Assembly (NCBI GenBank): GCA_024228555.1 | Contig: JAAETI010000710.1 | Location: 1 to 48,886, forward strand | Source: a bacterium | GTDB taxonomy: Bacteria > Actinomycetota > Acidimicrobiia > Spongiisociales > UBA5794 | Direction of reading: 5' to 3' | DNA length: 48,886 bases | Part shown: positions 5,035 through 41,612 of the stretch, piece after piece | How positions within the stretch are numbered: the stretch's first letter is position 1 | How the letters are laid out: each line of letters opens with the position of its first letter | Made by a program: the position numbers and the translations under genes | The notes under the pieces: model-generated | Told to the model about the DNA's origin: nothing | The model's input: only the letters and a program-made list of their open reading frames with translations | Database searches by the model: none

Positions 5035-6045
5035 ATGGCGAAACCAGCAGATCTCCCAGACTGGAACACAGGCGGAAGCAATCGCGTCGAGCCTTCGGGC
5101 GGCGTGAAGGTGTCGGGCTTCACCGTCGATCAAGTGCCGTCGTCGTCGATCCAGAACTGGTGGCAGCATCGGGTTTACGACTGGATCCGATTTCTGCAGC
5201 AGGAATCGAAAAGCGGTTACTACGGCGATGGTTCCGACGGAGACGCGACGATCAGTGCCAATACGACGCTTACTCGTACCATGTTCTATAACGATCTAGC
5301 CGTTGACACTGGGTTCAATCTTGATCCAGACGGCTACATCATCCACGTGTTAGGCACGCTCACGGTAAACGGCACGATCAGCCGAAATGGAAACGACGGC
5401 CTAGATGGCACGGCCGTTGCTGGTGGGACAGGCGGGGCTATTCACGCGATGTCCGGTCGGCCCCTACGTGGAGGCCTCAATGGTGGTGGTGGTGGTTTTG
5501 GCGCTGGGTCCGCTGGGTCAAACGGACCAAACGCAGCAGACAGCTACGGCGGCGACGGTGCTGCTGGTGGTGCAGCAGGCGCATGGGGGCCGTCGTCAGG
5601 CGGTACGGCGAGCACGCCCGCCGCTGGGCTTGGATCGATTCGCGTGTTGCCGTATGCGGCGATGGGGCAGATCTTATCCGCGGATGGCTGGACAGCCGTT
5701 CGCGGCGGGGCTGGTGGTGGTGGTGGTGCAGCGAACGCGGCCAGCCATGGCGGAGGCGGCGGAGGCGGCGGAGGCGGCATAATGGTCATCTGCGCCCCCA
5801 CGGTCGTAAGCTCTGGGGCTGTCTCCTGTAACGGGGGGGCCGGCGGTGACGGATTCAACAATACTGGCCAGGCGGCGGGCGGCGGCGGTGGTGGTGGCGG
5901 GCTCCTCGTCGTTCTCTCCAGGGACCAAGATCTGACCGGCGGCGGTACGTGGACGGCAACGGGCGGAGCTGGCGGATCGGGCTTCAACGGCGCCGGGGAC
6001 GGCGTAGCAGGGTCTGCAGGGACTGTTCTCCAGTTCACGATCTGA
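5035..6045 (+). CDS. Glycine-rich tail fibre / adhesin
   Basis: 336 residues. Residues 1-130 form a non-repetitive base. From about residue 130 onward the protein is built of Gly-rich loops, including two runs of eight to ten glycines near residues 240-250 and 285-292. Such Gly-rich stacks occur in adhesin tips of T-even gp38 type (polyglycine-II sandwiches). It directly follows the I-like gene, the usual site for a receptor-binding protein. The DNA has a GGA/GGC microsatellite near 5752-5778 (9-bp period), which could slip in frame. Function is inferred from composition and location; no enzymatic motif is visible. Confidence 0.65.
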   Translation: MAKPADLPDWNTGGSNRVEPSGGVKVSGFTVDQVPSSSIQNWWQHRVYDWIRFLQQESKSGYYGDGSDGDATISANTTLTRTMFYNDLAVDTGFNLDPDGYIIHVLGTLTVNGTISRNGNDGLDGTAVAGGTGGAIHAMSGRPLRGGLNGGGGGFGAGSAGSNGPNAADSYGGDGAAGGAAGAWGPSSGGTASTPAAGLGSIRVLPYAAMGQILSADGWTAVRGGAGGGGGAANAASHGGGGGGGGGGIMVICAPTVVSSGAVSCNGGAGGDGFNNTGQAAGGGGGGGGLLVVLSRDQDLTGGGTWTATGGAGGSGFNGAGDGVAGSAGTVLQFTI

Positions 6046-6066: not shown

Positions 6067-6753
6067 ATGCCAAGACGCGGAACAGCGACAGCCGAGATCG
6101 TCGAGACGGCCGTTCTGGATATCCGTCACGCTGGGCGCGCAACAATGTTGACGCCAGATGTGATCGAAGAAGTCTGCAAAGTGTTGTTTATCAGCGGGCG
6201 TCGTGGGATGGCGATGACGGTGAGCGGGGTTACACCCCACACGTTTTACAAGTGGCACCGACGTGGCCGCGACGCATTGGCCGAGGCGCAGGTTCGGCTG
6301 GAGTCAGAGGGGATCGATCGGAATCGTCGGGCCAGCGATGTGCCGGATCACGATCTGATCTTTGCCGAGCTCGTGTTGGCGATGGAGTACGTGGAGGCGA
6401 TGCGGGAGAAGTGTCTCCTCGAAGGGATCCAGCACCATGGATCCCGGGACTGGAAGGCGTACCAGTACCTCCTCGAACGCAGCGACGAGCTGGACAAGAG
6501 CGACCGTCAGGGCGAGAAGCACAGCCAGCGATACTGGGATGCGAAGATCGAGGCAGCATTGGGGGAGGCGCTCTCAAATGATGAGCTCCGTCAACTTGCC
6601 TCACTTCTCGAAAAAGTTGAGGAGCGCGCATCCAAGCCGAGTCCTCGCGAGGCGGAGTCTCCTGGAGTTCACACAGGCGACGATGCCAACGTTCAAGGTA
6701 AGCTGGCATCACGTCTTGCTCGCGGAGACCCTGGATCGGGTCCTGTCTGGTGA
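6067..6753 (+). CDS. Putative small terminase subunit
   Basis: 228 residues. The middle contains a helix-turn-helix-like SGVTPHTFYKWHRRGRDA, followed by a helical region with YVEAMREKCLLEGI and a DWKAYQYLLERS motif seen in small terminases that lie before a Terminase_6-type large subunit. The protein would bind the packaging site and present DNA to TerL. Its last 58 codons overlap the start of the large subunit (176 bases). The ATG lacks a Shine-Dalgarno sequence; a possible extended -10 lies just upstream. Identification rests on HTH pattern and position. Confidence 0.7.
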   Translation: MPRRGTATAEIVETAVLDIRHAGRATMLTPDVIEEVCKVLFISGRRGMAMTVSGVTPHTFYKWHRRGRDALAEAQVRLESEGIDRNRRASDVPDHDLIFAELVLAMEYVEAMREKCLLEGIQHHGSRDWKAYQYLLERSDELDKSDRQGEKHSQRYWDAKIEAALGEALSNDELRQLASLLEKVEERASKPSPREAESPGVHTGDDANVQGKLASRLARGDPGSGPVW

Positions 6754-8035
6754 GATCACGCGGCTACTTGTATCGATGCCGCCGAGGCACAGTAAATCAG
6801 AACTGATCTCACGTAGGCTTCCGGCGCTTGCGCTCGGGCGTAACCCCGATGAGCGGATCATGGGGTGCGCGTACAGTGAGCCGTTTTCCCAAGAGTTCAA
6901 CCGCGACATTCAGGGGATCATAACTGGCGACGAGTACCGCGACCTGTTTCCTGATACGCGTTTAAGCCAGCGGCGAACTGGATTCACCGAACGGCCGTAT
7001 CAGCGCAATGCATCGGTGTTTGAGATTGTGGATTGCCGTGGGTACTATAGGGCGTCTGGGATCGGCGGATCGATCACTGGTAAGGGGGCGACGCTCGCGA
7101 TCATCGATGACCCGATCAAGAATCACGAGGAGGCCTACTCGGCCACGCATCGAAAGTCGATTCAGCACTGGTACACATCCACGCTCCGAACCCGGATGGA
7201 ACGCGACCTTGAAGAAGGCTCGACTCCGCCGCGGATCATCGTTGTGGCAACGCGCTGGCACGAAGACGACTTGATCGGATGGTTGCAGGCCACGGACGAT
7301 CGCAACGAATGGCATGCACTCAACTTGCCGGCGATCTTGGATAGCGAACCGCACCCCTGTGACCCTCGCGAGCAGGGCGATGCACTGTGGCCGGTAGGAT
7401 TCAACATCGGCGAGCTGCGCAGTCTCGAGTCAGACGTCGGGCCCCGCGACTGGGAGTCGCTGTACCAGGGACGTCCATCGCCGGCGGGCGGCGGCATGGT
7501 CAAGACCACGTGGTGGCAGCGGTATGGATCGATCCCTGGCCTGCAGGACAAGATCCTGACTGTCGATCCGAACTTCGGGGAGAAGACCAAGGAAGGCAGC
7601 CGGTGCGCCATGTATGTCATGGGGATCCGCGGCCCTGATCGCTACATCATGGACGCCAGGGTGGGGCGTATGGACTTTACGGAGATGCTCGACGCAATCC
7701 GGCACCTCGTCTCGATCCATCCGGATATCACAACGATACTGATCGAGAAAAAGGCAGCCGGTGCGCCGGCGATCAACGTCTTACGCAGGGAGTTTCCCGG
7801 TGTTACCGAGTTCAATCCCACAGGCTCGAAGGAGGCCCGCGTTGCTGCGATCACCCACTACTTCTCGGGCGGTAATATCTTCGTTCCGGATCAGGTGAAC
7901 TGGGTGGGCGAGCTGATCCACGAGTTCGCCGCCTTCCCCGCAGGCCGGTACGACGACCGCGTCGATGCGATCTCGCAGGCGCTTATCCACACACAAGATT
8001 CATTCGCGAATAACTTTGCAGCCCTGGCACGATGA
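6578..8035 (+). CDS. terL: Terminase large subunit
   Basis: 485 residues from the ATG at 6578, which has GGGGGAGG nine bases upstream. A later ATG at 6683 would remove the conserved ARRSLLEF-SWHH segment and is less likely. ATPase: Walker A PPRHSKSE at about residue 66, then the Walker-B-like TLAIIDDP and a VATRWHEDDLIGWL motif. Nuclease: LTVDPNF, LIEKKAAG and C-terminal DDRVDAISQAL, as in RNase H-fold packaging nucleases. It packages DNA into the prohead through the portal encoded next. The N-terminus overlaps the TerS gene by 176 bases in another frame, unusually long for this phage. Confidence 0.93.
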   Translation: MMSSVNLPHFSKKLRSAHPSRVLARRSLLEFTQATMPTFKVSWHHVLLAETLDRVLSGEITRLLVSMPPRHSKSELISRRLPALALGRNPDERIMGCAYSEPFSQEFNRDIQGIITGDEYRDLFPDTRLSQRRTGFTERPYQRNASVFEIVDCRGYYRASGIGGSITGKGATLAIIDDPIKNHEEAYSATHRKSIQHWYTSTLRTRMERDLEEGSTPPRIIVVATRWHEDDLIGWLQATDDRNEWHALNLPAILDSEPHPCDPREQGDALWPVGFNIGELRSLESDVGPRDWESLYQGRPSPAGGGMVKTTWWQRYGSIPGLQDKILTVDPNFGEKTKEGSRCAMYVMGIRGPDRYIMDARVGRMDFTEMLDAIRHLVSIHPDITTILIEKKAAGAPAINVLRREFPGVTEFNPTGSKEARVAAITHYFSGGNIFVPDQVNWVGELIHEFAAFPAGRYDDRVDAISQALIHTQDSFANNFAALAR

Positions 8036-9552
8036 ACATGGACACCCCAGCAAACGACAAGACGATCGAAGCGCTGGATCGGATGATCCGCAAGTATTCA
8101 TCGCCGTTCCGAGAGGACGGTTTCGGGAACCTTGCCACCGGGCTTGGCGTTACCGGCCTTGATAGGGGCCGCGCCTCCCGAGTGGCGCCACCGCAAGACG
8201 TGTCTGAGGACGATGCGCTGAACCTCTACCGAGGTTGTGGGGTAGCTGCCCGCGCAGTCGACATCCCTGCACAGGACATGACGCGCGCAGGGTTTGAGAT
8301 CGTCTTGCGGCCGACGGCTGACAAGGCGGAGGACTTTGACAACGAAGAGGCGCAACTAGTCTCCGACGACACACAGGACGCGCTTGAAAGCCTTCGGGCG
8401 ATCAGGGAGATAAAACGCGCCCTTCGGTGGGAGGCGCAGTATGGTGGTGCGATCGTCTTCGTTGGAATCGACGATGGGAAGGAGCCGGATCAGGAGGTCA
8501 CCGATCTGACCAAGATCCTGTTTGTGCGCGCGATGCATCGGTACAAGGTGACCGTCGGGCCGCTTGTTACCGACGTTCAGGATCCGCGGTTCGGAAAGCC
8601 GGAATCCTATGTCCTCGTGCAAACGAACGGGCAAGAGGGGATCACCGTACATCACAGCAGGGTCCTGGAGTTCCCTGGCTTGGTCGACATCGATCAGGAC
8701 GAACGCGCTACCAGTAACGACGGATGGTCGGACTCGATCTACGTTCGGCTCTGGGATTCGCTGCGAGTGTTCGTAGAAAGCTACGGATACGCTGGGGTGA
8801 TCACTCAGGACTTCGCGCAAGCCGTTTGGAAGATCAAGGATCTGGCGATCATGTTGAAGGCTGGGAAGGAATCCGAGATCCAGTCCCGGGCCCAGCTCAT
8901 GGACATCGTGGCGTCGATCCTAAATGCGAGGTTGCTCGATGCGGACGGTGAATCGTGGGAGCGGCAATCAACGAACGTAGCCGGGTTTCCAGAGTTGCTC
9001 GATAGGTTCGGCGTGCGCCTTGCGGCCGACTGGGGGGGACCGCTTACGCTGCTCCTGGGCCAGACGCCATCTGGTTTCAGCAAGGAAGACGTGACAGGAG
9101 AAGCGAACTGGGACGATGTCATCGCAGGTTGGCAGGAGGAGCGGCTAGTCCCAGAGCTGGAGAAGCTCGTAGGTCTGATGTTTCGGGCAAAGGAAGGGCC
9201 GACGGGTGGCGTCGAGCCGGATCGCTGGAAGGTCGTCCCGAAACCACTCACACAGATGAACGAGAAGGATACGGCCGATCTTAGGAAAACCACCGCGGAG
9301 TCTGACGGTATTTATGTGGCCAATGACGTGCTGACACCCGAAGAAGTGGCCCAGTCGCGGTTCGGCGGCGCTATGTGGAGCATGGAAACCACTCTTGATC
9401 TCGAGGCGCGGGCAGAGATCGCCGAGGCAGAGGAGGAGATGAAAAACAACCCTCCACCACCGCCACCTGTTCCCCCACCATCCCCATTCCCGCCTACGGA
9501 CGAACCGCCGCCAGATCTGGAAGAAGAGGAGCCTGATGGCGAGGAGACGTAG
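8032..9552 (+). CDS. Portal protein (DUF1073 family)
   Basis: 506 residues, starting with an ATGA overlap of the TerL stop. The segment YRGCGVAARAVDIPAQDMTRAGFEI, then RWEAQYGGAIVFVGIDDG and TPSGFSKEDVTGEANW is the DUF1073 portal signature (the family name that also covers Acb1-like domains; here position and length show a portal). It forms the dodecameric DNA gate. The C-terminus is a Pro-rich tail (residues about 467-495, with runs of prolines) and then an acidic end, probably a flexible arm. Confidence 0.88.
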   Translation: MNMDTPANDKTIEALDRMIRKYSSPFREDGFGNLATGLGVTGLDRGRASRVAPPQDVSEDDALNLYRGCGVAARAVDIPAQDMTRAGFEIVLRPTADKAEDFDNEEAQLVSDDTQDALESLRAIREIKRALRWEAQYGGAIVFVGIDDGKEPDQEVTDLTKILFVRAMHRYKVTVGPLVTDVQDPRFGKPESYVLVQTNGQEGITVHHSRVLEFPGLVDIDQDERATSNDGWSDSIYVRLWDSLRVFVESYGYAGVITQDFAQAVWKIKDLAIMLKAGKESEIQSRAQLMDIVASILNARLLDADGESWERQSTNVAGFPELLDRFGVRLAADWGGPLTLLLGQTPSGFSKEDVTGEANWDDVIAGWQEERLVPELEKLVGLMFRAKEGPTGGVEPDRWKVVPKPLTQMNEKDTADLRKTTAESDGIYVANDVLTPEEVAQSRFGGAMWSMETTLDLEARAEIAEAEEEMKNNPPPPPPVPPPSPFPPTDEPPPDLEEEEPDGEET

Positions 9553-10333
9553 AGTCCCAAGAATGCCCGAGGGGCGCATGGTCGCGATCGCGTACTTCAA
9601 GGCGATCCGTCGGCAGGTGATCGCGCCGCTTCTTGCAGCGATCTCAGAGACGTTCGACCTCGAGTCTCTGAAGCTGGCCGCCGCCGTGGATCCTGGCGTG
9701 GGAGCGACCGACCGCGTGGACATTGCCGGGGAGGTAATCTCGGCAGGGCTCCAACTCCGCAACACCGTAGCGCCATTATTTACGATCGGACCTTTGGATC
9801 AGATCACACGCACACACGCGCTCCGTATGGCGGTCATGAACCGATCGGGGTTCACTCGGCAGATGAAGGCGCTGGGTGTAGACGCCATCGGGGAGGATCC
9901 AGATCTGGGGCGCACGATCGAACTGTTCGCGCAGACAAACGCCAGGCTGATTACAAACATGGCAGAGGACCACATCCGCAGGGTGGAGACGATCACGATC
10001 GAAGGTCTGCGATCCGGCAAGACCGCAAAGCAGATGGGCGCGGAGATCAGCAAGGCTGCGAAGATCCCGAAACGTCGCGCTGCACTGATCGCGCGTGACC
10101 AGGTCGCGTCACTGAACGGCACGCTCTCACAGAATCGTATGCAGGCGGCTGGGGTGGAGAAATTCATTTGGCGGACGTCTCAGGATGAGCGCGTTCGACC
10201 AGAACATGCCGCCTTGGAAGGACACGAGTTCCCGACGAGCACCGGCGCGCCGGGGGAGGGCTTTCCAGGCCAACCTATAAACTGCCGGTGCACTTCGGAG
10301 CCGGTCTTGTCTGACGTGGAGATCGCAGCATGA
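9536..10333 (+). CDS. Mu F-like minor head (head morphogenesis) protein
   Basis: 265 residues, overlapping the portal stop by 17 bases with a good AGAGGAG upstream. The N-terminal half is helical. The C-terminal 90 residues carry the phage Mu F / SPP1 gp7 signature: ALIARDQVASLNG, then TSQDERVRPEHAALEGHEF and GQPINCRCTSEP. These proteins sit inside the capsid near the portal and may be ejected with DNA. Position after the portal is canonical. Confidence 0.9.
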   Translation: MARRRRVPRMPEGRMVAIAYFKAIRRQVIAPLLAAISETFDLESLKLAAAVDPGVGATDRVDIAGEVISAGLQLRNTVAPLFTIGPLDQITRTHALRMAVMNRSGFTRQMKALGVDAIGEDPDLGRTIELFAQTNARLITNMAEDHIRRVETITIEGLRSGKTAKQMGAEISKAAKIPKRRAALIARDQVASLNGTLSQNRMQAAGVEKFIWRTSQDERVRPEHAALEGHEFPTSTGAPGEGFPGQPINCRCTSEPVLSDVEIAA

Positions 10334-10383
10334 GTAAACGAGTGAACATGCCGGGCAACCGGCGCAGAAAAAGGACATCATGA
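10330..10383 (+). CDS. Possible 17-residue basic peptide linking two genes
   Basis: An ORF encoding MSKRVNMPGNRRRKRTS starts with ATG overlapping the previous stop (ATGA) and ends with TGA overlapping the next ATG (ATGA). GGAGA lies seven bases before its start. Seven of 17 residues are Lys or Arg. It may only couple translation across the gap, or it may be a true micropeptide. No homology can be judged at this length. Confidence 0.3.
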   Translation: MSKRVNMPGNRRRKRTS

Positions 10384-10820
10384 GCAAAGGCAACACATTT
10401 GAAAACGAACTCTTGGAGTGCATCTTCAACAACGCGGACATTCCGCTGATCGGTGACGCTGGGGGTATCCAGCAATCCGTGGCCAACGGTGATCTATTCG
10501 TGTCACTACACACAGGTGATCCAGGCGAAGCCGGCGTTCAGACCACCAGCGAATGCGCGTACACTGGATACGCTCGCGTGGCGGTGGACCGCGATGGTGC
10601 GGCCTGGACAGTTACCGCGAACAGTGTCAGCCCTGCATCTGATATCGACTTTGGAGAGAAGACCGGGGGGGGCGACGAAACCGTCACTCACTTTGCGATC
10701 GGTACGGCAACGTCTGGCGCGGGTAAGATCCTGTACTACGGCACCATGACGCCAAACATCTCCGTGGTCAACGGGACGATCCCGCGGTTCAGGGACACCA
10801 GCACAGTGACGGAGGATTAG
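10380..10820 (+). CDS. Structural protein of tail-fibre / decoration type
   Basis: 146 residues. It contains LFVSLHTGDPGEAG, then YTGYARVAV, VTHFAIGT and a TVTED C-terminus. This pattern recurs in a small virion-protein family often labelled tail fibre or Gp80-like in phages of many hosts. No enzymatic site is seen. An AAAGGA precedes the ATG at 10380. It opens the appendage block that ends at 16978. Exact virion position is unknown. Confidence 0.55.
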   Translation: MSKGNTFENELLECIFNNADIPLIGDAGGIQQSVANGDLFVSLHTGDPGEAGVQTTSECAYTGYARVAVDRDGAAWTVTANSVSPASDIDFGEKTGGGDETVTHFAIGTATSGAGKILYYGTMTPNISVVNGTIPRFRDTSTVTED

Positions 10821-10823
10821 GCG

Positions 10824-11456
10824 ATGCCATACTGCGCATACGGAGACATGAGAGACGAGAGCCTGATTGAAATGGTCAATCGGGGCGAGGTGCCGCCCGA
10901 TGGTTGGGGCGGCGATCTGCTTCAATCGGTTTCCATAAACAGCGGGGTGCCTGTCGATGATATCGACTGGTTTGCGGTTACGGACGAGACCGATATCCAG
11001 CGGCTGGACGACCGGCTGGAGTGGGAACTTGTGTGGACGAGCGGCACGATCTCGGGCCTGGACTTCACGGTAGACGATGGGGTCAAGTTTGGACTAAAAG
11101 CCGTATGGGTCGGTGGCAAACAACCCGACAACAACGATGGCATCGTGTACCTACGCAATGGCCAAAGTGTCGTTGTGAAGTTCGAGGTGTGGAACCTCGT
11201 AAATGGAGTCCCAGAATCACTGGCCACACAGCTGGGAAATCAGGGCGACATCCCGATCCTTGTGGACGGCATCGGGCGCAGGCTGCACATCGATCTAACC
11301 GCGGGTGTCAGCGAGAGCTGGACGTTGACTCATGAGACAACGATTGGAAGGCAAGCTGAATACATCCTGCCACAGAAGGGGTACAAAAACACCAGGTATA
11401 AGACCTTCGGAGATTCTGTCATCGTGCGGCATTCAACAGAACCGAGCGAGATCTAA
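10824..11456 (+). CDS. Hypothetical virion-associated protein
   Basis: 210 residues, not recognised. It is rich in beta-strand-like stretches with few charged runs, has no signal peptide or membrane segment, and contains three bases of space after the preceding structural gene. The context (a structural gene before, the giant fibre after) suggests an appendage or fibre-base protein. The N-terminal part has YGDMRDESLIEMVNRGE, possibly helical. Function is not assignable. Confidence 0.6.
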   Translation: MPYCAYGDMRDESLIEMVNRGEVPPDGWGGDLLQSVSINSGVPVDDIDWFAVTDETDIQRLDDRLEWELVWTSGTISGLDFTVDDGVKFGLKAVWVGGKQPDNNDGIVYLRNGQSVVVKFEVWNLVNGVPESLATQLGNQGDIPILVDGIGRRLHIDLTAGVSESWTLTHETTIGRQAEYILPQKGYKNTRYKTFGDSVIVRHSTEPSEI

Positions 11457-11478: not shown

Positions 11479-14400
11479 GTGCAAATCGTAAAGATCCAAG
11501 AGGTATCTTTCACGATTGCGTCCGGTGCGTCGTCTGGCACCGGTTCGCTCAGCGGGTTCACCACGCTGGGCAAGATGGTGGCGTTTGCGTCGTGGCGCGT
11601 GGCCGATGGTCAGTCGCCGGCCCTTGCGTCTAACACCGATGTTGACGTTTACGTAAGTTCAACTTCGCAGATCACTGCCGAGCGTTGGGGGACGCCTAGC
11701 TATGAAATAACGATCCGCGCGTACGTCATCGAGTTTAGCTCTGACACCACGGTCCAAAAGGGCACGTGGGCGATGACCGATTCCGAGACGTCGGACACGG
11801 CATCGATCTCATCCTCGACGCTGGCCAACTCATTCGCGTGGCACTATCGGAAAAGCGAAGGCGAAGCGACGCCGAGTAATGACTCCGACCCCGATGGTCG
11901 GCTGACTCGCTTTCTTTTCAACTCTACGACCGAGCTTGGTGTTGGGCGGACTATAGCGAAGGGCGCATGTGAGGGGCACTGGTTCGTTGTTTCGTCTAGC
12001 ACGCTATCAGTCCAGCACATACAGAATTCTGTCACCGCGCAAACTGGCACGTCGATCACTGATGCGATCACGTCTGTAACGACCGCGAACACGTTCCTCG
12101 TGGGGTCGATGGACACGGACGAGGCCGTGTACAACGACGAAGGCGTTTGGGTAACAGATCTCCAGAACGCTACAACGTTGCGCTGGCGTAGGAGCTACTC
12201 GTCTGCCGTAGACTCGATTTTCGATGTGATGGTTGTCGAGGACTCGGCGCTGACCGTCCAGCGTGGCGAGTGGTCAGTATCGGGAACGTCGACCAATACG
12301 GCGATCACGATAGTCGACACTGACCTTGCAGTAGCAAAGCATGCCGACGGCACGTCAGGCCGCGCGAGTACATCGGATTACAACAACGGCAACATGGATG
12401 GCCGGTACTGGGAGCTGTGGTTTGGTACCAGCTCTCAGATCAATGGGCAGACGGGGGATGGGCTCGCAGACCTGATCGCGACGTGGGAAGTCGTAGAGTT
12501 TGAGTCAGAATCCAACATCAAAGCAGGCGACGGGGTTTCGGCAGGCGTCGCAACTGTTACAGGGATCAGCGGGAACGTCGCACTCAGTACAGTTGCACTC
12601 GGCTCACTGCCGACACAGGAGCCAGCACGCCCGAATTCCACAAGCGTAAACGTAACCGGCGTGAACTTCGGTGCGTCGCAAGGGACCACAGAAGTCTGGT
12701 TGACAAACGATCCTGTATGGGGTGACGAGACTGTCAAGACTGAGCAGACGTCCATAGACTCGTGGACCGACTCGAGCTTTGGGTTTGATGTTGCGCTCGG
12801 GTCGCTTTCGCAGGGGACGTCCAATCTCTTCGTCGTGAAGGATCCCGGCGGGACTCCGCAGGTCTCCAACTCCCTCGCGATGCTGATCTCCAGTTCTGAC
12901 GTTCACTACGAGTCCGACATGGTGGCGATCCCGACGGGGACCGGCGTCAAGACGCTATTCACGCCCACGATCAGCGACGTCAAGGCATACATCATCTGGT
13001 GGGATGGCTCGGTTGCCGATGACACCACGGAGACGGATGCGACGTGGGGGGTGGCGGTCGTCACGGACGACGAGGCGATCGGTGCTGTCTGTGCTGCAAC
13101 CGATGGCGCGAACTCAGATGTTCGCGAGCAGATCCGCCAGTCCACGGACGGTGGCGGCGCGCTGAGCATCTTCGCGGACGCAGCAGATACAACGTCCGAA
13201 GTTCGCGGCACGCTTACGATCGGCAGCAGCGGACAACTGCAATCAAATCTCAGCCTGAACGACGACGCCGGGTACAACTTGCACGTACTCGCGATCGGCG
13301 GCCGGACAGCGAAAGCGTATATCGGATCATCGACGATCAGCGCCGGGGAGATCGGATCGATCCCGTTCCCGAGCAATCCAGATCTGGCGGTAGTTCTCGG
13401 GGTTGGCGTCACGTTCGGCAGCTCATCTACCGCCGGGCTCCATAACTTCGGTGTCTTCGACGGCTCTAGCTCGTGGTGGATCGCCACTCACTTCTCATCG
13501 ATTGCGACCGCGGAGTCGAGGCTCCGGTCCAGCGCGATCGGTGGTCAGCTCTCAGGTGGCTCGCTTACCTATGAGATGACGTCCCCGGCGTTTGCTGCGG
13601 ATGCTCCCAACCGCAAGATCACTTGGAGCGGATCCAACGCGGACGAGATCGGGATGCTGTTCCTGTGGGTTGACGCGGAGAGTGTCGATGTAGGGACCTT
13701 CACGAAGGAGACGACCGGCGGCGACCCGGTCACTCAGGCGTTGCCCACGATGGGTTTCGATCCCACCGGCGCGGTGATGCTCGCGACCGCAAACAAGACA
13801 TCGGAGACGGTCGACGGCACTGGAGACGTCCAGATCTCGCTAGGGATCAAGCAAGGCGATTCACAGCAGACCTCCGCGAACGTCACGATCGTCAACAACG
13901 CGGGCACGGACTTCATCGCCAGGAAGCGAAGCTCCACATCCCTGGCAATCGAGACGGCCGACGATCTTGCGGGTGGTGTCGACATTGGCGGCGACCTTCA
14001 AGAGTTGACCGATCAGGTTGACGTCGATTGGTCGCCCAACACGACGGCGGCCACCATTTTTGGCTACATCGGCTTGAGCGAATCCGTAGGCGTCGCGGCT
14101 GGAGATGGCTCGGCCGCAGGCGCCGCAACCACCACAGGCATTGGCGGCGCGATCAAGGGAGCGGCCGGCTCGGCCGCTGGCACGGCTACGACCGCGGGCG
14201 TCGGCCAATCCACAATTGCAGCAGTCGCGACCAGCGCTGGCGTCGCGACAGTGGCGGGGGTCGGCCAGGCTGCGGCGGCCGGTGCGGGGAGCTCGGCCGG
14301 GCTCGCGACAGTCGCCGGCGTGGGCCAGGCTATCGCGGCGGGCGTGGGCTCGAGCTCGGGCGCGGCCCCGGCCACCGGTGTCGGCGGGGCGACGGCCGGG

Positions 14401-16629
14401 GCGGTAGGATCTGCGGCTGGTTCCGCAACGACCAGCGGGATCGGCGCAGGGCTCAAGGCTGCGGTCGTCAGCGCCGCGGGCGTAGGTACGACCTCGGGGG
14501 TTGGCGGCGCTACGGCCGGGGTGGCAGGTTCGGCTACCGGAGTCGCTGTGGTCTCCGGCGTGGGCGTTGCGACGGCCGCAGGGGTAGCCAGCTCGGTTGG
14601 CGCTGCGACCGTTTCCGGCGTCGGGCAGGGCGTCACGGCTTCGTCAGCATCGGTTACCGGAGTCGCCACGGTTGCCGGTGTCGGACAAGCGACTACAGCG
14701 GCGATCGCGAGCGCTGCAGGATCTGCGACGACCACCGGCATCGGCCAGGCGGCTGTGGCCGGCGTTGGGACTAGTGCAGGATCTGCAACCACCTCTGGTG
14801 TAGGACAAGCGGCTACGCAGGCGGTGGCTGCGTCGGCCGGGGCCGCGATTGTGGCCGGCGTCGGTCTCGGCGTGCGGCCGGGCGTGGCCAGCGCTGCGGG
14901 TGTAGCGACCGTTACGGGAGCTTCATCCGCTGTAGCTGAGGGGACCGGGTCGGCCACGGGCACCGCCACTGCCACCGGCGTTGGGCAGGACATCCCCCAA
15001 GGGGTCGCTTCCGCGGCCGGCGCGGCAACATCCACGGGCATCGGCCAAGCCACGACCGGCGCCGTGGCGTCGGCCGCTGGCGTAGCAGTCGTCTCTGGGG
15101 TCGGGACAACCGCGAGCGAGGGGGTTGGATCCGCGGCCGGCATGGCGGTTGCCGCTGGAGTTGGCCAAGCCACGACCGGGACGGTGGGCGCCTCAGTCGG
15201 AGCCGCGGTCGTTTCCGGCGTCGGCCAGGCCCAGGCCGCTGGGACGGCTTCTGCGGCCGGCGCGGCAACGGTCGCCGGCGTCGGGATCCCCGTCATCCCC
15301 GGCGTCGGTTCGGCGGCGGGGGCCGCTACATCGACGGCGATTGCCCAAGGCATCGGACAGGGCGTCGGTTCGGCCGCCGGCGCGGCTGTAGCGGCTGGGG
15401 TTGGGCAGGGAACGACCGCTTCGATTGCCTCGGCGTCAGGTGCCGCAACTGTCAGCGGTATCGGCCAGGGCAGCGGCATTGCCGTGGGCTCGGCCGTGGG
15501 CTCGGCGGTTGTCACCGGCGTCGGCCAGGCCACCAAACAAGCCGTATTCAGCGCGGCCGGCGCGGCGACTGTCAGTGGTGTCGGCCAGGACGCGGATCTC
15601 GAAGGGGGAGACGCGAACGCGGCGGGGACAAGCACGGCAGCGGCTGTGGGGGTCCGCATTTTCCCTGGTGTAGGCTCGTCTGCCGGCGTAGCCACGGTTT
15701 TGGGCATAGCGACTGCTGCGACGGCCGGGGTCGGGAGTTCGGCGGGTGTCAGTGCTGTCAGTGGCGTTGGGACCCCCGTCGTCCCGGGCGTGGGCTCGAG
15801 CGCCGGGGCTGCTGTGGTGTCTGGGGTCGGGCAACCAGTTGGCCAAGGGGTGGCATCGGCCGCCGGGGCCGCGACGACGGTGGGTGTTGGGGCGGGAGCT
15901 ACGGCGGCAGTGGCGAGCGCAGTCGGCGCGGCCACAGTCTCCGGGATCGGCCAAGGGACTGGCCAGGGCGTGGGGGGCAGCGCCGGGGCCGCGACTGCCA
16001 CAGGCGTTGGGGCGGGTGTTGTTCCGGCCGTGGCGTCATCGGCTGGATCCGCCACAACCGCCGGCGCCGGGGAGGCGGCAGGCGGTAGCGTGGCCACAGC
16101 GGCCGGATCCGCGACCGTATCCGGAGTTGGTCAAGGGACCACCGCGGCGGTAGCGAGCGCCGCCGGGGCCGCGACCGTCAGCGGGATCAGCATCGTCGCC
16201 ACGTCTGGCGTCGGCTCATCTGCTGGCGTGGCCACTGTCACGGGCGTCGGCCTGCCGGTCCTGCCCGGCACCGCGTCTGCGGCCGGCACCGCCACGTCCG
16301 CCGCGGCCGGCCTCGAGGTACGCCAAGGGGTCGCCAATTCGGCCGGCACCGCCACGGCAACCGCCATAAGCGCGGCTACAGCGCAGAGTGTCGCCATGGC
16401 CGCAGGCCTCGCTCTGACCCTGGGCGTCGGCACTGCCATTGCTCAGGCGGCAGCGAATGCCGCGGGCACGTCATTTGTGCAGGCGTCGTCGCAGGGAGAA
16501 GTCTCACCGCCATACCAGGCCGCCGTGCTCGACGACTCGGTTTTTGGGGCGGCGGTTTTGGAAGACGTCGTTTTTCAGGTGCTTGTGAACGAAGCACCAG
16601 TTTTCGGAGCAATCGCCAATGTGGACTAG
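11479..16629 (+). CDS. Giant repeat-containing fibre / adhesin (1716 residues)
   Basis: GTG start with GGAG eight bases upstream. Residues 1-345 look like beta-rich domains (two related segments, around QKGTWAMTDSETSDT and QRGEWSVSGTSTNT). Residues about 387-470 resemble an IPT/TIG beta domain (VTGVNFGASQGTTEVWL, then a GGTPQVSNSL end). Residues 480-870 are a further globular part. Residues about 874-1667 are roughly forty 20-residue repeats (GVGQATxxGVASAAGxATVS-like). The final 45 residues (QAAVLDDSVFGAAVLEDVVF) are a hydrophobic-acidic cap. It is the longest gene and most likely a long fibre stalk with a receptor-binding or attachment end. The call is by architecture, not homology. Confidence 0.7.
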   Translation: MQIVKIQEVSFTIASGASSGTGSLSGFTTLGKMVAFASWRVADGQSPALASNTDVDVYVSSTSQITAERWGTPSYEITIRAYVIEFSSDTTVQKGTWAMTDSETSDTASISSSTLANSFAWHYRKSEGEATPSNDSDPDGRLTRFLFNSTTELGVGRTIAKGACEGHWFVVSSSTLSVQHIQNSVTAQTGTSITDAITSVTTANTFLVGSMDTDEAVYNDEGVWVTDLQNATTLRWRRSYSSAVDSIFDVMVVEDSALTVQRGEWSVSGTSTNTAITIVDTDLAVAKHADGTSGRASTSDYNNGNMDGRYWELWFGTSSQINGQTGDGLADLIATWEVVEFESESNIKAGDGVSAGVATVTGISGNVALSTVALGSLPTQEPARPNSTSVNVTGVNFGASQGTTEVWLTNDPVWGDETVKTEQTSIDSWTDSSFGFDVALGSLSQGTSNLFVVKDPGGTPQVSNSLAMLISSSDVHYESDMVAIPTGTGVKTLFTPTISDVKAYIIWWDGSVADDTTETDATWGVAVVTDDEAIGAVCAATDGANSDVREQIRQSTDGGGALSIFADAADTTSEVRGTLTIGSSGQLQSNLSLNDDAGYNLHVLAIGGRTAKAYIGSSTISAGEIGSIPFPSNPDLAVVLGVGVTFGSSSTAGLHNFGVFDGSSSWWIATHFSSIATAESRLRSSAIGGQLSGGSLTYEMTSPAFAADAPNRKITWSGSNADEIGMLFLWVDAESVDVGTFTKETTGGDPVTQALPTMGFDPTGAVMLATANKTSETVDGTGDVQISLGIKQGDSQQTSANVTIVNNAGTDFIARKRSSTSLAIETADDLAGGVDIGGDLQELTDQVDVDWSPNTTAATIFGYIGLSESVGVAAGDGSAAGAATTTGIGGAIKGAAGSAAGTATTAGVGQSTIAAVATSAGVATVAGVGQAAAAGAGSSAGLATVAGVGQAIAAGVGSSSGAAPATGVGGATAGAVGSAAGSATTSGIGAGLKAAVVSAAGVGTTSGVGGATAGVAGSATGVAVVSGVGVATAAGVASSVGAATVSGVGQGVTASSASVTGVATVAGVGQATTAAIASAAGSATTTGIGQAAVAGVGTSAGSATTSGVGQAATQAVAASAGAAIVAGVGLGVRPGVASAAGVATVTGASSAVAEGTGSATGTATATGVGQDIPQGVASAAGAATSTGIGQATTGAVASAAGVAVVSGVGTTASEGVGSAAGMAVAAGVGQATTGTVGASVGAAVVSGVGQAQAAGTASAAGAATVAGVGIPVIPGVGSAAGAATSTAIAQGIGQGVGSAAGAAVAAGVGQGTTASIASASGAATVSGIGQGSGIAVGSAVGSAVVTGVGQATKQAVFSAAGAATVSGVGQDADLEGGDANAAGTSTAAAVGVRIFPGVGSSAGVATVLGIATAATAGVGSSAGVSAVSGVGTPVVPGVGSSAGAAVVSGVGQPVGQGVASAAGAATTVGVGAGATAAVASAVGAATVSGIGQGTGQGVGGSAGAATATGVGAGVVPAVASSAGSATTAGAGEAAGGSVATAAGSATVSGVGQGTTAAVASAAGAATVSGISIVATSGVGSSAGVATVTGVGLPVLPGTASAAGTATSAAAGLEVRQGVANSAGTATATAISAATAQSVAMAAGLALTLGVGTAIAQAAANAAGTSFVQASSQGEVSPPYQAAVLDDSVFGAAVLEDVVFQVLVNEAPVFGAIANVD
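12523..12582 (+). repeat. Single outlying copy of the 20-residue repeat
   Basis: Residues about 349-368 of the giant fibre read AGDGVSAGVATVTGISGN, close to the first unit of the main array (AAGDGSAAGAATTTGIGG). It lies 1.5 kb before the array, just ahead of the IPT/TIG-like domain. It could be the ancestral unit or a trace of recombination. Confidence 0.6.
14101..16480 (+). repeat. Array of about forty 60-bp (20-residue) tandem repeats
   Basis: A 2.4-kb in-frame array with a 60-bp period encodes units of the form SAAGxATxxGVGQxxxxGVG. Units diverge in both bases and residues, so it is an old array under selection for the pattern. Small residues (Gly, Ala, Ser, Thr, Val) dominate, as in a stacked beta or collagen-like stalk. 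Recombination between units could change fibre length in 60-bp steps. Collapsed or expanded copies are possible in a short-read assembly. Confidence 0.9.
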
Positions 16630-16978
16630 CAAACTCGGTCTTACCGCCAAGCCTTTGATCCTGGGCCTCACCCAGAGCGGGGTCCTGGTCAACTTCTCCA
16701 CGCTCACAGGGCCCGGCGGATCGGGGGCCCCGCAGCTCCGGTTACGAACGGAGTGCGACAGGCAAGTCAACGCAGTGTCCTTTGATATGGTGATCTATGT
16801 CGACCCTGGCATTCCCGCGCAGTACAACGCGCAGCGGATCTGGGTGCCGGGAGACTTCGCAAGCCTGCGCGCAACCACGTATTTCGGCGAGGTCGACGCG
16901 CAGTTGGACACGGGCAAGGATGTGAGTTTCCCTGACGGCGGCTATTTCACGATCAAATTCCTCGGCAGCCTCGAGTAG
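16619..16978 (+). CDS. Hypothetical small structural protein
   Basis: 119 residues, overlapping the giant fibre gene by 11 bases. Not recognised. The composition is beta-rich with Gly/Pro turns (LTGPGGSGAPQLRL) and no membrane segment or signal peptide. It is the last plus-strand gene of the appendage operon and stops 18 bases before the convergent lipoprotein gene. It may be a fibre-tip or assembly partner of the giant fibre. Confidence 0.65.
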   Translation: MWTSKLGLTAKPLILGLTQSGVLVNFSTLTGPGGSGAPQLRLRTECDRQVNAVSFDMVIYVDPGIPAQYNAQRIWVPGDFASLRATTYFGEVDAQLDTGKDVSFPDGGYFTIKFLGSLE

Positions 16979-31010: not shown

Positions 31011-31276
31011 TCACAACGCAGACCAGCATATACGCCGGGTACACAGAAGACATTGACCGGCGGCCGATCCGTCTCACAGAATGCCGACACGGGTTCTCGT
31101 ACACCCCGGGCCCGGATGACCAAAAGGGGATTTGGTCCCTGGCGACGATCGGCCCACAGGAGGGCTCAAAGATAGGGCCTGCCGTTCCGCAGATGGACAT
31201 CGACCACGTTTACAATGTCGCAATCACGACAACAGCGGCGGAACAGGCGTGGTTGGCGACAGGGTGGGGGAGATGA
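30986..31276 (+). CDS. Hypothetical DUF6948-like small protein
   Basis: 96 residues from the ATG at 30986. Contains LVTTQTSIYAGYTE, RLTECRHGFSYTPG, IGPAVPQMDIDHVYNVA, a pattern that I associate with DUF6948 proteins of phages (weak match). It overlaps the previous gene by 25 bases. No function is known to me. Confidence 0.55.
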   Translation: MSKNKHVLVTTQTSIYAGYTEDIDRRPIRLTECRHGFSYTPGPDDQKGIWSLATIGPQEGSKIGPAVPQMDIDHVYNVAITTTAAEQAWLATGWGR

Positions 31277-31782
31277 ACGGCCGCGGAAACGATTATGGCA
31301 ATGGTGACGGTTATGATAATGGTGACGGTTATGGTTTTGGCAATGGCAATGGCAATGGCAATGGTAATGGTTATGGTTATGGTGGCGGTGACGGTTATGG
31401 TGACGGTTATGGTTATGGTGACGGCGACGGCTTCGGCAACGGCAACGGCTTCGGCTACGGCGACGGCTTCGGCTTCGGCTTCAGCGACGGAAACGGCAGC
31501 GGCTACGGCAACGGCAACGGCCGCGGCAACGGCTACGGCAACGGCTACGGCGGCGGCAACGACGGCACCGGCTACGGCGGCCGGTTTGAGGTCTCGATTG
31601 ATGGCGGGCTAATCGGGGTTGGTTGCGAGACAATGCAGGCCGCCGACTGGCTCTCCGAAAAAGGGGATCGGCTTTTCGCCGAAAACAACGCTACACCCGA
31701 CGAGATTGCAACCGTGAGAGCCCTGGCTGGTGCGGTTATGTCCGGATCCATTGTGAGCAGGGAGGTGGCGGATGACGACTGA
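31273..31782 (+). CDS. Gly-X dipeptide repeat protein
   Basis: 169 residues from the ATG at 31273, overlapping the previous stop. Residues about 6-103 are a near-perfect alternation of Gly with Asn, Asp, Tyr or Phe (GNGNGNGNGYGYG, GDGFGNGNGFGYG). Residues 104-169 form a globular-looking end with FEVSIDGG and GVGCETMQAADWLSEKG. It has no signal peptide, so it is probably intracellular; a phase-separating or structural role is possible. The repeat could vary by six bases without a frame change. Confidence 0.65.
   Translation: MNGRGNDYGNGDGYDNGDGYGFGNGNGNGNGNGYGYGGGDGYGDGYGYGDGDGFGNGNGFGYGDGFGFGFSDGNGSGYGNGNGRGNGYGNGYGGGNDGTGYGGRFEVSIDGGLIGVGCETMQAADWLSEKGDRLFAENNATPDEIATVRALAGAVMSGSIVSREVADDD
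31288..31584 (+). repeat. Hexanucleotide (GGY-NAY-type) repeat tract
   Basis: About 49 six-base units coding Gly-X. The first half uses T-ending codons (GGT TAT, GGT GAC, GGC AAT), the second half C-ending codons (GGC TAC, GGC AAC, GGC TTC), with the switch near 31427. This looks like two separate expansion events. Slippage in six-base steps would keep the frame. Confidence 0.85.
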
Positions 31783-39259: not shown

Positions 39260-39828
39260 CGCTTTACGTCCCATCTACGCCGAACATGCTTGGCCGATCT
39301 GCGCTCGAATTCAGCCAGCTGCTCGAACAAGACGCAAGCTACGTCAACCCGGCGTACATCCCCCAGGAGGAGGAGACGCTTCCACAGCGGCAGCACGCGG
39401 GCTTGTGGCTGTACCAGATGGCCGTAAACGAGGAGGTCCAGGCCTTCATGATTGCGGCCACAGACCAGGGGTCGCAGGCATCTGTGGCCACCACGGACGC
39501 AACGCCAACGAACATCGTGCAGATCTCCGTGGCCGATGGCGAATGCGTGGAGATCAACGCATCCATCGACGGGAAGCAGACTGCGGGCGGCGTCTCGCAC
39601 GCGTTCCAGCGTCTCTGGATCAAAGCCGTCCGAGTCGACGCAGGCGCAGGGCTCGAAGTGGTGCAGACCGTCGACGACACAGGCCCGAGCTACGATTCAA
39701 ATGGGCTGTCCACTGTGAGCTACCGGATCGTTCCAAATGCGGGGAACAATTCGCTTGATATCGAGGCCACGGGCGAGGCTGCGACGAACATCACCCACAC
39801 AGTGATCTACACGCTGAGGCGGTTCTAA
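39256..39828 (+). CDS. Hypothetical fibre-base or neck-appendage protein
   Basis: 190 residues, not recognised by family. Beta-rich (VEINASIDGKQ and LDIEATGEAATNITH). Stop and next start overlap (TAATG), and the next gene encodes a long glycine-rich fibre, so the two may form a head or neck fibre. It is placed between neck genes, not near the baseplate. Confidence 0.6.
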   Translation: MTLYVPSTPNMLGRSALEFSQLLEQDASYVNPAYIPQEEETLPQRQHAGLWLYQMAVNEEVQAFMIAATDQGSQASVATTDATPTNIVQISVADGECVEINASIDGKQTAGGVSHAFQRLWIKAVRVDAGAGLEVVQTVDDTGPSYDSNGLSTVSYRIVPNAGNNSLDIEATGEAATNITHTVIYTLRRF

Positions 39829-41612
39829 TGCCACACGGAAAAGTAGGATCGCACGCTTGGTGGGCCTCGGATGGGACGTCCAGGGACGCAATCGGCACAA
39901 ATCACGGGCTGCTGGTAAACGACACGGCCACGCTCTCGGACGGGACGCGGCATATCTGCGCAACGGTTCCAGGTGCGACCACGTCTACATGGGCTGCGCT
40001 CGCATCGTCGGAGTCGCTTGCTGTGACGCTTGCTGCTGGCAACGTGACTGGCGGAAACGACATCGTTATCAGCTCAGGTGACGAGCTGCGCGGTGTAGAC
40101 GCGACCGACGCGACCATAACCGGGCTGACCACTCGCGGCGGGGACTACACAGGAACAGGCTCGGACAACGCGGGCGACATGGTGGTTCAGGGCGGGGATT
40201 CTTCCAGTCCGAGCGGGGGAAGCACTGGCGGACTGCTCGCCATGCGAGGTGGAAGCTCGTCAGGCGGTCTCGCGCGTGGTTTCCAGATCGGGGGAAGCAT
40301 CGGAAACACTACGGAACTGTCCTGGGTTCGTGGTGTTGATGCAAACAGTGGCAATGGAGCGGGTGACATTGAGGTGGCGGGGGGAACTGCTACCGCCGGT
40401 GGAGCCTGTGGCGTTGTCACAATTCATGGTGGTGAGCCCTCTACATCTGACGCAAATAATCGTCCTGGAGGGGCCGTCACTATCCACGGCGGTGATGGTG
40501 GTGGAGGGGGGCTTGCGGGCACTCATTTTGGCGGAACCACTACAGTTCGCGGCGGCCATGGAGAGTTTTTGGGCGGCGGTGGACACCTGGTTCTCGCCGC
40601 TGGCGATGCCGGTAGCGAGTCGAATGTGCCGGGAGGGTACATCGCAGTAACTGGTGGTGCATCCACGGGGAATACAAAAGGCGGTGACATCACATTGACC
40701 CCCGGCGCATCATCCGGGAGCGGGCGAGCAGGTATCACGTTCATTGTTCCGGCTACCAGCGGGAGTGGCCCTGCAGGAACAATGGTCATCGGATCTGCAA
40801 CCGAACCGCCGGTTACTGGAAACGCTCTGAACATCACCGGTGTCGGCGGGCGAATTGGGGGGTACGACGTAGCGACCAACCTCACGCCGAAGCACGTTCG
40901 CTTGGGTGTTGTTCACTACACGAACGCCAGCGGCATGGCTTCAGTGATCTCTGGGGACACTGAAAACGGGGGAAACGTCGTGAAGATCGGCGGTGGTGAT
41001 GGGAGTTGGAACGCAGCAACGTCTATCGAATTCTATACAGCGGCGAACAGTACGACGACGGCCGGAACGGCCGCGGGATCGATCAATAGCAGTCAGGACT
41101 GGACCATTGGGGAAGATGGTGGAGGTGCGGCGCACGTCGTCCATGGCGTTAGCGGCATGTTCCGCTCTGAAAGCACGGACACGGCCAATAAGTCGTTTTC
41201 GTTCGTCACGACGCCGTACAACACATCCGAAGGCAACATTCGATTCCTGTCGACGTCGACCACGAATGGCGCAAATACGATGACCATTGGAGGCGGCTCA
41301 AGCGTGGATGGCATGACCGCAATCCAGTTCTGGACGTCCTCTGCTGTCGACACGAACGCCACGCAGCGCGGAGTCATCACGACCGCTGGTCTGCTGGACT
41401 GGGTTGGCGATGTCCGCGGTCGGACCTTTTTCGCGGACGGTGACGAGGGAACCGGCATCGCAAGTACTGTGGCCATGACCAACGTGGATGACACCGACGT
41501 CGCTGGCTCTGCGCTTGCGATGACCAACAACACTGGTGACGGTCTGGCTCACGCCGGTTTCTTGAAATTCTACATGGGGACAACTGCAATCAAGGTCCCC
41601 TATTTCACATGA
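39828..41612 (+). CDS. Glycine-rich head/neck fibre
   Basis: 594 residues. Residues 1-90 are a base, 90-310 a run of GGD- and GGS-containing strands (for example VVQGGDSSSPSGG, VTIHGGDGGGGG) like a beta-helix stalk, and 310-594 a globular or trimeric end. A cluster of such repeats occurs in fibres of unrelated phages. It is encoded in the neck block, so whisker or head fibre is more likely than a baseplate fibre. This is inference from position and composition. Confidence 0.6.
   Translation: MPHGKVGSHAWWASDGTSRDAIGTNHGLLVNDTATLSDGTRHICATVPGATTSTWAALASSESLAVTLAAGNVTGGNDIVISSGDELRGVDATDATITGLTTRGGDYTGTGSDNAGDMVVQGGDSSSPSGGSTGGLLAMRGGSSSGGLARGFQIGGSIGNTTELSWVRGVDANSGNGAGDIEVAGGTATAGGACGVVTIHGGEPSTSDANNRPGGAVTIHGGDGGGGGLAGTHFGGTTTVRGGHGEFLGGGGHLVLAAGDAGSESNVPGGYIAVTGGASTGNTKGGDITLTPGASSGSGRAGITFIVPATSGSGPAGTMVIGSATEPPVTGNALNITGVGGRIGGYDVATNLTPKHVRLGVVHYTNASGMASVISGDTENGGNVVKIGGGDGSWNAATSIEFYTAANSTTTAGTAAGSINSSQDWTIGEDGGGAAHVVHGVSGMFRSESTDTANKSFSFVTTPYNTSEGNIRFLSTSTTNGANTMTIGGGSSVDGMTAIQFWTSSAVDTNATQRGVITTAGLLDWVGDVRGRTFFADGDEGTGIASTVAMTNVDDTDVAGSALAMTNNTGDGLAHAGFLKFYMGTTAIKVPYFT

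Follow-up and report, generated by a model that had tools for sequence, protein, structure and literature searches.

The Alishewanella phage LSH1 encodes, as gp34-gp36, a three-gene module of virion proteins (PMC13243795, 2026): an adhesin whose long C-terminal part is predicted as a poor beta-helix, a result that its authors left unexplained, a protein matching the fibril of podophage GP4, and a small Ig-like protein (PMC13243795). The reference for the second of these is fiber I gp80 of the Ralstonia podophage GP4 (PF23140, PDB 8JOU), and the LSH1 authors see in 8JOU_g a fibril that joins an adhesin to the collar (PMC13243795). A long fibre attached at the neck and ending in a carbohydrate-binding module has also been described in the contractile Anabaena phage A-1(L), where it is assembled from a separate bead protein present in many copies (PMC10966104).

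Here we describe a phage locus that can be compared with these systems. The window, a stretch of 48,886 nucleotides analysed at its full length, is one entire contig of a 1027-contig assembly, and encodes a homologue of GP4 gp80 (10380-10820) near a large, putatively adhesive protein on the same strand that contains a region of 20-residue period, as would be expected of an LSH1-type module. The position of the small Ig-like protein is taken by a 119-aa ORF, for which the one match is a weak one to another array locus, L116 (E 0.003-0.005). This likeness sets the published description of the LSH1 virion proteins beside genes of the window. GP4 differs in being a podophage, whereas the window phage is contractile-tailed, and the A-1(L) fibre, likewise compared by its description (PMC10966104), shares neck attachment, a contractile phage and a terminal binding module with the proposed appendage but is assembled from bead copies rather than from an internal array.

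Results

Genes for terminase, portal, MuF, head protease, major head protein, neck, sheath, tape measure and baseplate were identified on the contig with Pfam and PHROGs, and the contig is therefore a contractile-tailed phage. The giant gene lies in its head module, after the portal, MuF, gp80-like and 210-aa genes. The features considered are as follows.

6362-10333, +, terminase large subunit, portal and MuF (Pfam, PHROGs)
10380-10820, +, gp80-like protein, 146 aa, likely fibre base or connector (PF23140, phrog_240, PDB 8jou_a)
10824-11456, +, 210-aa protein between the gp80-like and fibre genes (no Pfam or PHROG match)
11479-16629, +, giant fibre/adhesin gene, 1716 aa (ORF, GTG start)
11479-12510, +, N-terminal part, probably four tandem beta-rich domains of ~85 aa, d1-d4 (mutual sequence comparison)
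12517-12576, +, outlying 20-residue unit, IKAGDGVSAGVATVTGISGN (unit profile, 24.3 bits)
12577-12903, +, region labelled IPT/TIG-like by the sequence-only reading, label unconfirmed (no Pfam match; AF2 pLDDT 31.6)
12904-14091, +, two further regions without a family (no Pfam match)
14092-16491, +, array of ~40 units of 20 residues (lag-20 identity 0.45; unit profile)
16492-16626, +, short C-terminal tail with about three ~10-residue repeats, AAVLDDSVFG/AAVLEDVVFQ/VLVNEAPVFG (sequence reading)
16619-16978, +, 119-aa protein, its gene overlapping the fibre gene at the 3' end (ORF position in array loci)

The gp80-like protein matches PF23140 (5.4e-18), the head-protein PHROG phrog_240 (3.4e-17) and PDB 8jou_a (6.9e-7), which stands for 10 identical chains; the chain cited by the LSH1 authors is chain g of this entry. 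Among the fetched loci no homologue of the 210-aa protein was found. A small ORF of similar size occupies the place of the 119-aa protein in most array loci, and this protein could be the third component of the module. When host relatives were searched with the giant or with the portal, no related prophage came up, and a single distant array-like protein did (L002). Elsewhere on the contig, an ORF at 31132-31782 (+) is rich in GN/GY/GD dipeptides and carries 6/12/18-bp tandem repeats at 31289-31578, whilst a further surface protein may be encoded between the neck genes and the tail genes, where a 594-residue Gly/Ser-rich product (39828-41612, +) has no PHROG match.

The array spans aa 872-1671, that is about 40 units and ~800 of the 1716 residues (47%), in line with the sequence-only reading, which had counted about forty 20-residue repeats over nearly half of the protein. 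Across aa 872-1716, identity at lag 20 is 0.45, as compared to a maximum of 0.27 among lags other than multiples of 20; in the DNA of the gene, periodicity peaks at lag 60, the 60-bp period already noted. Twenty-five regular units (14092-15591) are followed by an irregular unit of 22 aa (15592-15657) and by ~14 further regular ones (15658-16491). Position 10 is Gly in 39/39 profiled units, and A12, G16, V/I17, G18, V5 and S7 are also strongly conserved. A 677-aa antisense ORF with Pro/Ala/Thr repeats overlaps the array stretch (14064-16097, -); we rejected it as a gene, considering it a shadow cast by the periodic, GC-rich array, though an automatic gene caller could take it for real.

The single unit reported 1.5 kb upstream of the main array also proved genuine: at aa 347-366 it scores 24.3 bits, whilst the best scores in 200 shuffles of the N-terminal part had a mean of -2.2, a 95th percentile of 4.0 and a maximum of 16.4. 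Between this unit and the array lies a 505-aa insertion made up of the 12577-12903 region and the two regions of 12904-14091. An IPT/TIG-like domain had been proposed for the first of these, a label that neither Pfam (no match at E ≤ 10) nor an uninformative AF2 model of the outlying unit with the supposed TIG domain (pLDDT 31.6) confirmed. Upstream of the outlying unit, d2 and d4 match each other at E 3e-6, and d1 and d3 just at E 0.01-0.05 in this four-sequence comparison. The N-terminal domains had no homologue by tblastn or in the fetched loci, and a profile of them returned itself alone from 296 genomes; tblastn of the giant and of its N-terminus against phages and viral contigs gave no match, partly owing to low-complexity masking of the array. 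The giant matched no Pfam family and no PHROG at E ≤ 0.1, tail-fibre PHROGs included, and nothing in the PDB by sequence; its fragments gave no useful Pfam or PHROG match either. Ten array relatives likewise gave no significant tail-fibre PHROG and no useful Pfam or PHROG name.

AF2, applied to aligned stretches of eight units taken from the window and its relatives, predicted two strands per unit (pLDDT 77, pTM 0.73). Foldseek with this array model returned no match below E 0.001, and in structural comparison it was no more than moderately similar to beta-helical and antifreeze proteins (best Z in VIA 9.4, against 3jx8). For repeat sequences, those with 20-residue units included, AF2 has a known preference for beta-solenoids (PMC11795689). 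As this bias was shown with perfect repeats and the window units are imperfect, we consider a beta-solenoid fold likely rather than firm. The array could instead be a flexible, largely disordered Gly/Ala/Ser/Thr/Val linker, an entropic spacer that would leave the adhesin role unchanged, and its composition would suit one, with A, G, V, T and S making up 88% of residues and 16 charged residues in 800. Disordered linkers require no exact period; here a strict 20-residue phase is held over 40 units, with an invariant G10 and a conserved hydrophobic pattern, and an equal period recurs in unrelated phages with other consensus sequences. The tendency of AF2 to over-predict solenoids for repeats (PMC11795689) and the suspicion of hallucination voiced by the LSH1 authors for a comparable domain (PMC13243795) both favour the linker, but the former was demonstrated on perfect repeats, whereas the units here are 47% identical at the protein level. 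We regard a disordered linker as the less likely reading, with a modest chance of being right, and retain the solenoid as the working fold.

Since BLAST low-complexity masking hides the array, viral contigs were scanned for runs of two or three units by means of degenerate DNA patterns, and all frames were then scored with an iterated unit profile. Arrays are present on at least 44 distinct viral contigs, 35 of them with five or more units; that of the window is the longest found, the next longest having 32-36 units. The N- and C-terminal parts of these proteins are mostly unrelated to one another and to those of the window, and in several other phages the array gene neighbours head, portal or tail-fibre genes. 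Insertions of at least 80 residues between units occur in 7 of 72 array proteins, the window's included, and in L275 the insertion is an apiosidase-like glycosidase (PF13204, E 1e-35) together with a second domain (PF12904, E 4e-12). As six other array proteins also have a domain between units, the simplest reading of the outlying unit is that a payload was inserted into the stalk near its outer end. The domain combination that had gone unrecognised is not unique, for the array recurs with different payloads and outlying units occur in six other proteins.

Several of these loci merit separate mention. The L275 gene (1909-4374, +), with its glycosidase between units, is a candidate phage depolymerase. 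A 9-unit array gene is identical letter for letter in six viral contigs (L185, L195, L214, L220, L222 and L238). The C-termini encoded by L033, L040, L162 and L231 have in common an acidic-hydrophobic motif (EDEELLLLI-like), absent from the window protein, which is possibly an attachment or assembly signal.

Among named phages, Microcystis phage Mae-JY04 encodes a 'hypothetical protein' (WWT39678.1) with a 16-unit array of the same 20-residue repeat, immediately after a gp80-like gene; unlike the window protein, it has 625 aa and another N-terminal domain. Slicko01, a named relative of LSH1, encodes a protein of 1843 residues (WGH49683.1; L258, 4570-10101, -) that has a 20-residue period with a different consensus, and an N-terminal region described as lyase-like (PMC13243795); the gp80 profile had no match in Slicko01. 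The period in this relative suggests that the unexplained LSH1 domain may be the same kind of stalk. A virion-detected fibre of Sinorhizobium phage phiM5_19, encoded near a weak gp80 relative, was rejected as a member, as it has no array.

With the window gp80-like protein as query, a gp80-like neighbour was found beside array after array. By profile search, a gp80-like ORF is present in 27 of 58 array loci as compared to 2 of the 167 loci without an array that these scans also brought in (Fisher p = 1e-16; here and below, counts include related contigs, and p-values, which ignore relatedness, are optimistic), on the same strand as the array in 27/27 cases and upstream of it in 26/27. Where at least 4 kb of upstream sequence is available, 18 of 20 array contigs have the gene (2 of 93 negatives, with at least 8 kb), and most gp80-negative array loci therefore merely end too near upstream. 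We also performed the reverse test, starting from gp80 alone, on 45 non-duplicate loci with enough downstream sequence. Arrays were recognised by profile in 20/45 downstream regions versus 5/45 upstream, whilst a dominant period of 20 or 40 residues was found in 35/45 downstream versus 4/32 upstream (Fisher p = 1e-8). The larger count by period than by profile indicates that, at the sequence level, the 20-residue period persists even where the residue consensus differs. Some gp80 homologues have no recognisable array; one scan returned at least 565 gp80-like relatives.

The description of the gene as a giant fibre is thus well supported, if indirectly, by the phage contig, the head/neck cluster, the gp80-like neighbour and the presence of arrays beside gp80-like genes elsewhere. 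It might nevertheless encode a conventional baseplate tail fibre set apart from the baseplate genes, and array genes do adjoin tail-fibre genes in L051 and L114. We judge this improbable: the giant has no tail-fibre PHROG match, its gene comes after portal, MuF and gp80, and a separate Gly-rich fibre-like gene, recognised by sequence reading, follows the baseplate genes (5035-6045) and has the look of this phage's ordinary tail fibre.

Finally, we compared the DNA of the units with a null in which synonymous codons were shuffled within the same protein. Unit-to-unit DNA identity has a mean of 52% and a maximum of 72%, the latter reproduced by the null, and is flat with distance; adjacent units (0.525 versus 0.520, p = 0.23) and the longest exact repeat (17 bp, p = 0.45) are also as expected, and the all-pairs mean alone is slightly above it (0.517 versus 0.512, p = 0.005). 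Tandem Repeats Finder did not call the array, which has no clear excess identity over the protein-level expectation of the kind that marks a hypervariable DNA tandem repeat. The period thus belongs to the protein level and is not a fresh DNA tandem repeat: the array is old, maintained by selection on the protein, with no trace of recent duplication and, in the window, no sign of ongoing length change by slippage. Between loci, the arrays of the homologues L027 and L253 are collinear at ~80% DNA identity, and the difference between L074 and L088, a more distant pair, amounts to whole units; the length of the stalk thus changes slowly. Neighbouring units are near-identical in L114 (1.0) and L038 (0.98). 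That recombination drives a variable-length repeat for quick tuning of fibre length, as the sequence-only reading had proposed, has very little chance of being right, for although the L114 and L038 units and the L074/L088 difference would fit it, unit similarity in the window is barely above the null and flat with distance, and L027 and L253 have stayed collinear.

Discussion

We propose that the giant is probably the large outer adhesin-plus-stalk subunit of a virion appendage mounted on a gp80-like base. Building on the array and how old it is, on the phage setting, on the linkage to gp80 and on the payloads inserted in relatives, we infer its fold, orientation, virion location and ligand as follows. 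The base would be the gp80-like protein, whose counterpart in podophage GP4 is called fiber I. Residues 1-871 would be the payload, several adhesive and probably beta-rich domains among which a single stalk unit has stayed behind, and the 40-unit array the stalk, its 20-residue rungs probably forming a two-stranded beta-solenoid some 19 nm long (40 rungs of roughly 0.48 nm, an inferred value). The C-terminal tail would likely attach to the gp80-like fibril or to a neighbouring small beta protein, and hence to the head-tail junction. This orientation, C-terminus toward the virion, is the least secure step; it is argued from the LSH1 module and from the fact that the N-terminal payloads vary. 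Such an appendage would probably touch polysaccharide on the host surface first, ahead of the receptor-binding proteins of the tail itself.

More broadly, many kinds of tailed phage may share an undescribed class of modular appendage, consisting of a gp80-type base gene and a stalk of strict 20-residue period but varying residues, with adhesin or glycosidase payloads anywhere along it; we hold this to be an even proposition. The repeat of the window protein is in any case not unique, and the protein is a very long member of a widespread and unnamed gp80-linked stalk class. The array has no name in Pfam, PHROGs or the literature searched, and its repeat motif occurs in no paper's text.

Hundreds of environmental phages have a gp80-like gene, and the large gene adjoining it is usually unnamed, missed by profile libraries and by low-complexity-masked BLAST. 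Recognising the 20-residue stalk gives these genes a testable role, and may account for the domain described as 'hallucinatory' in phage LSH1 and its relatives. Taken as a protein design, the stalk would be a modular scaffold found in nature, on which enzymes and binding domains sit at fixed distances from the virion.
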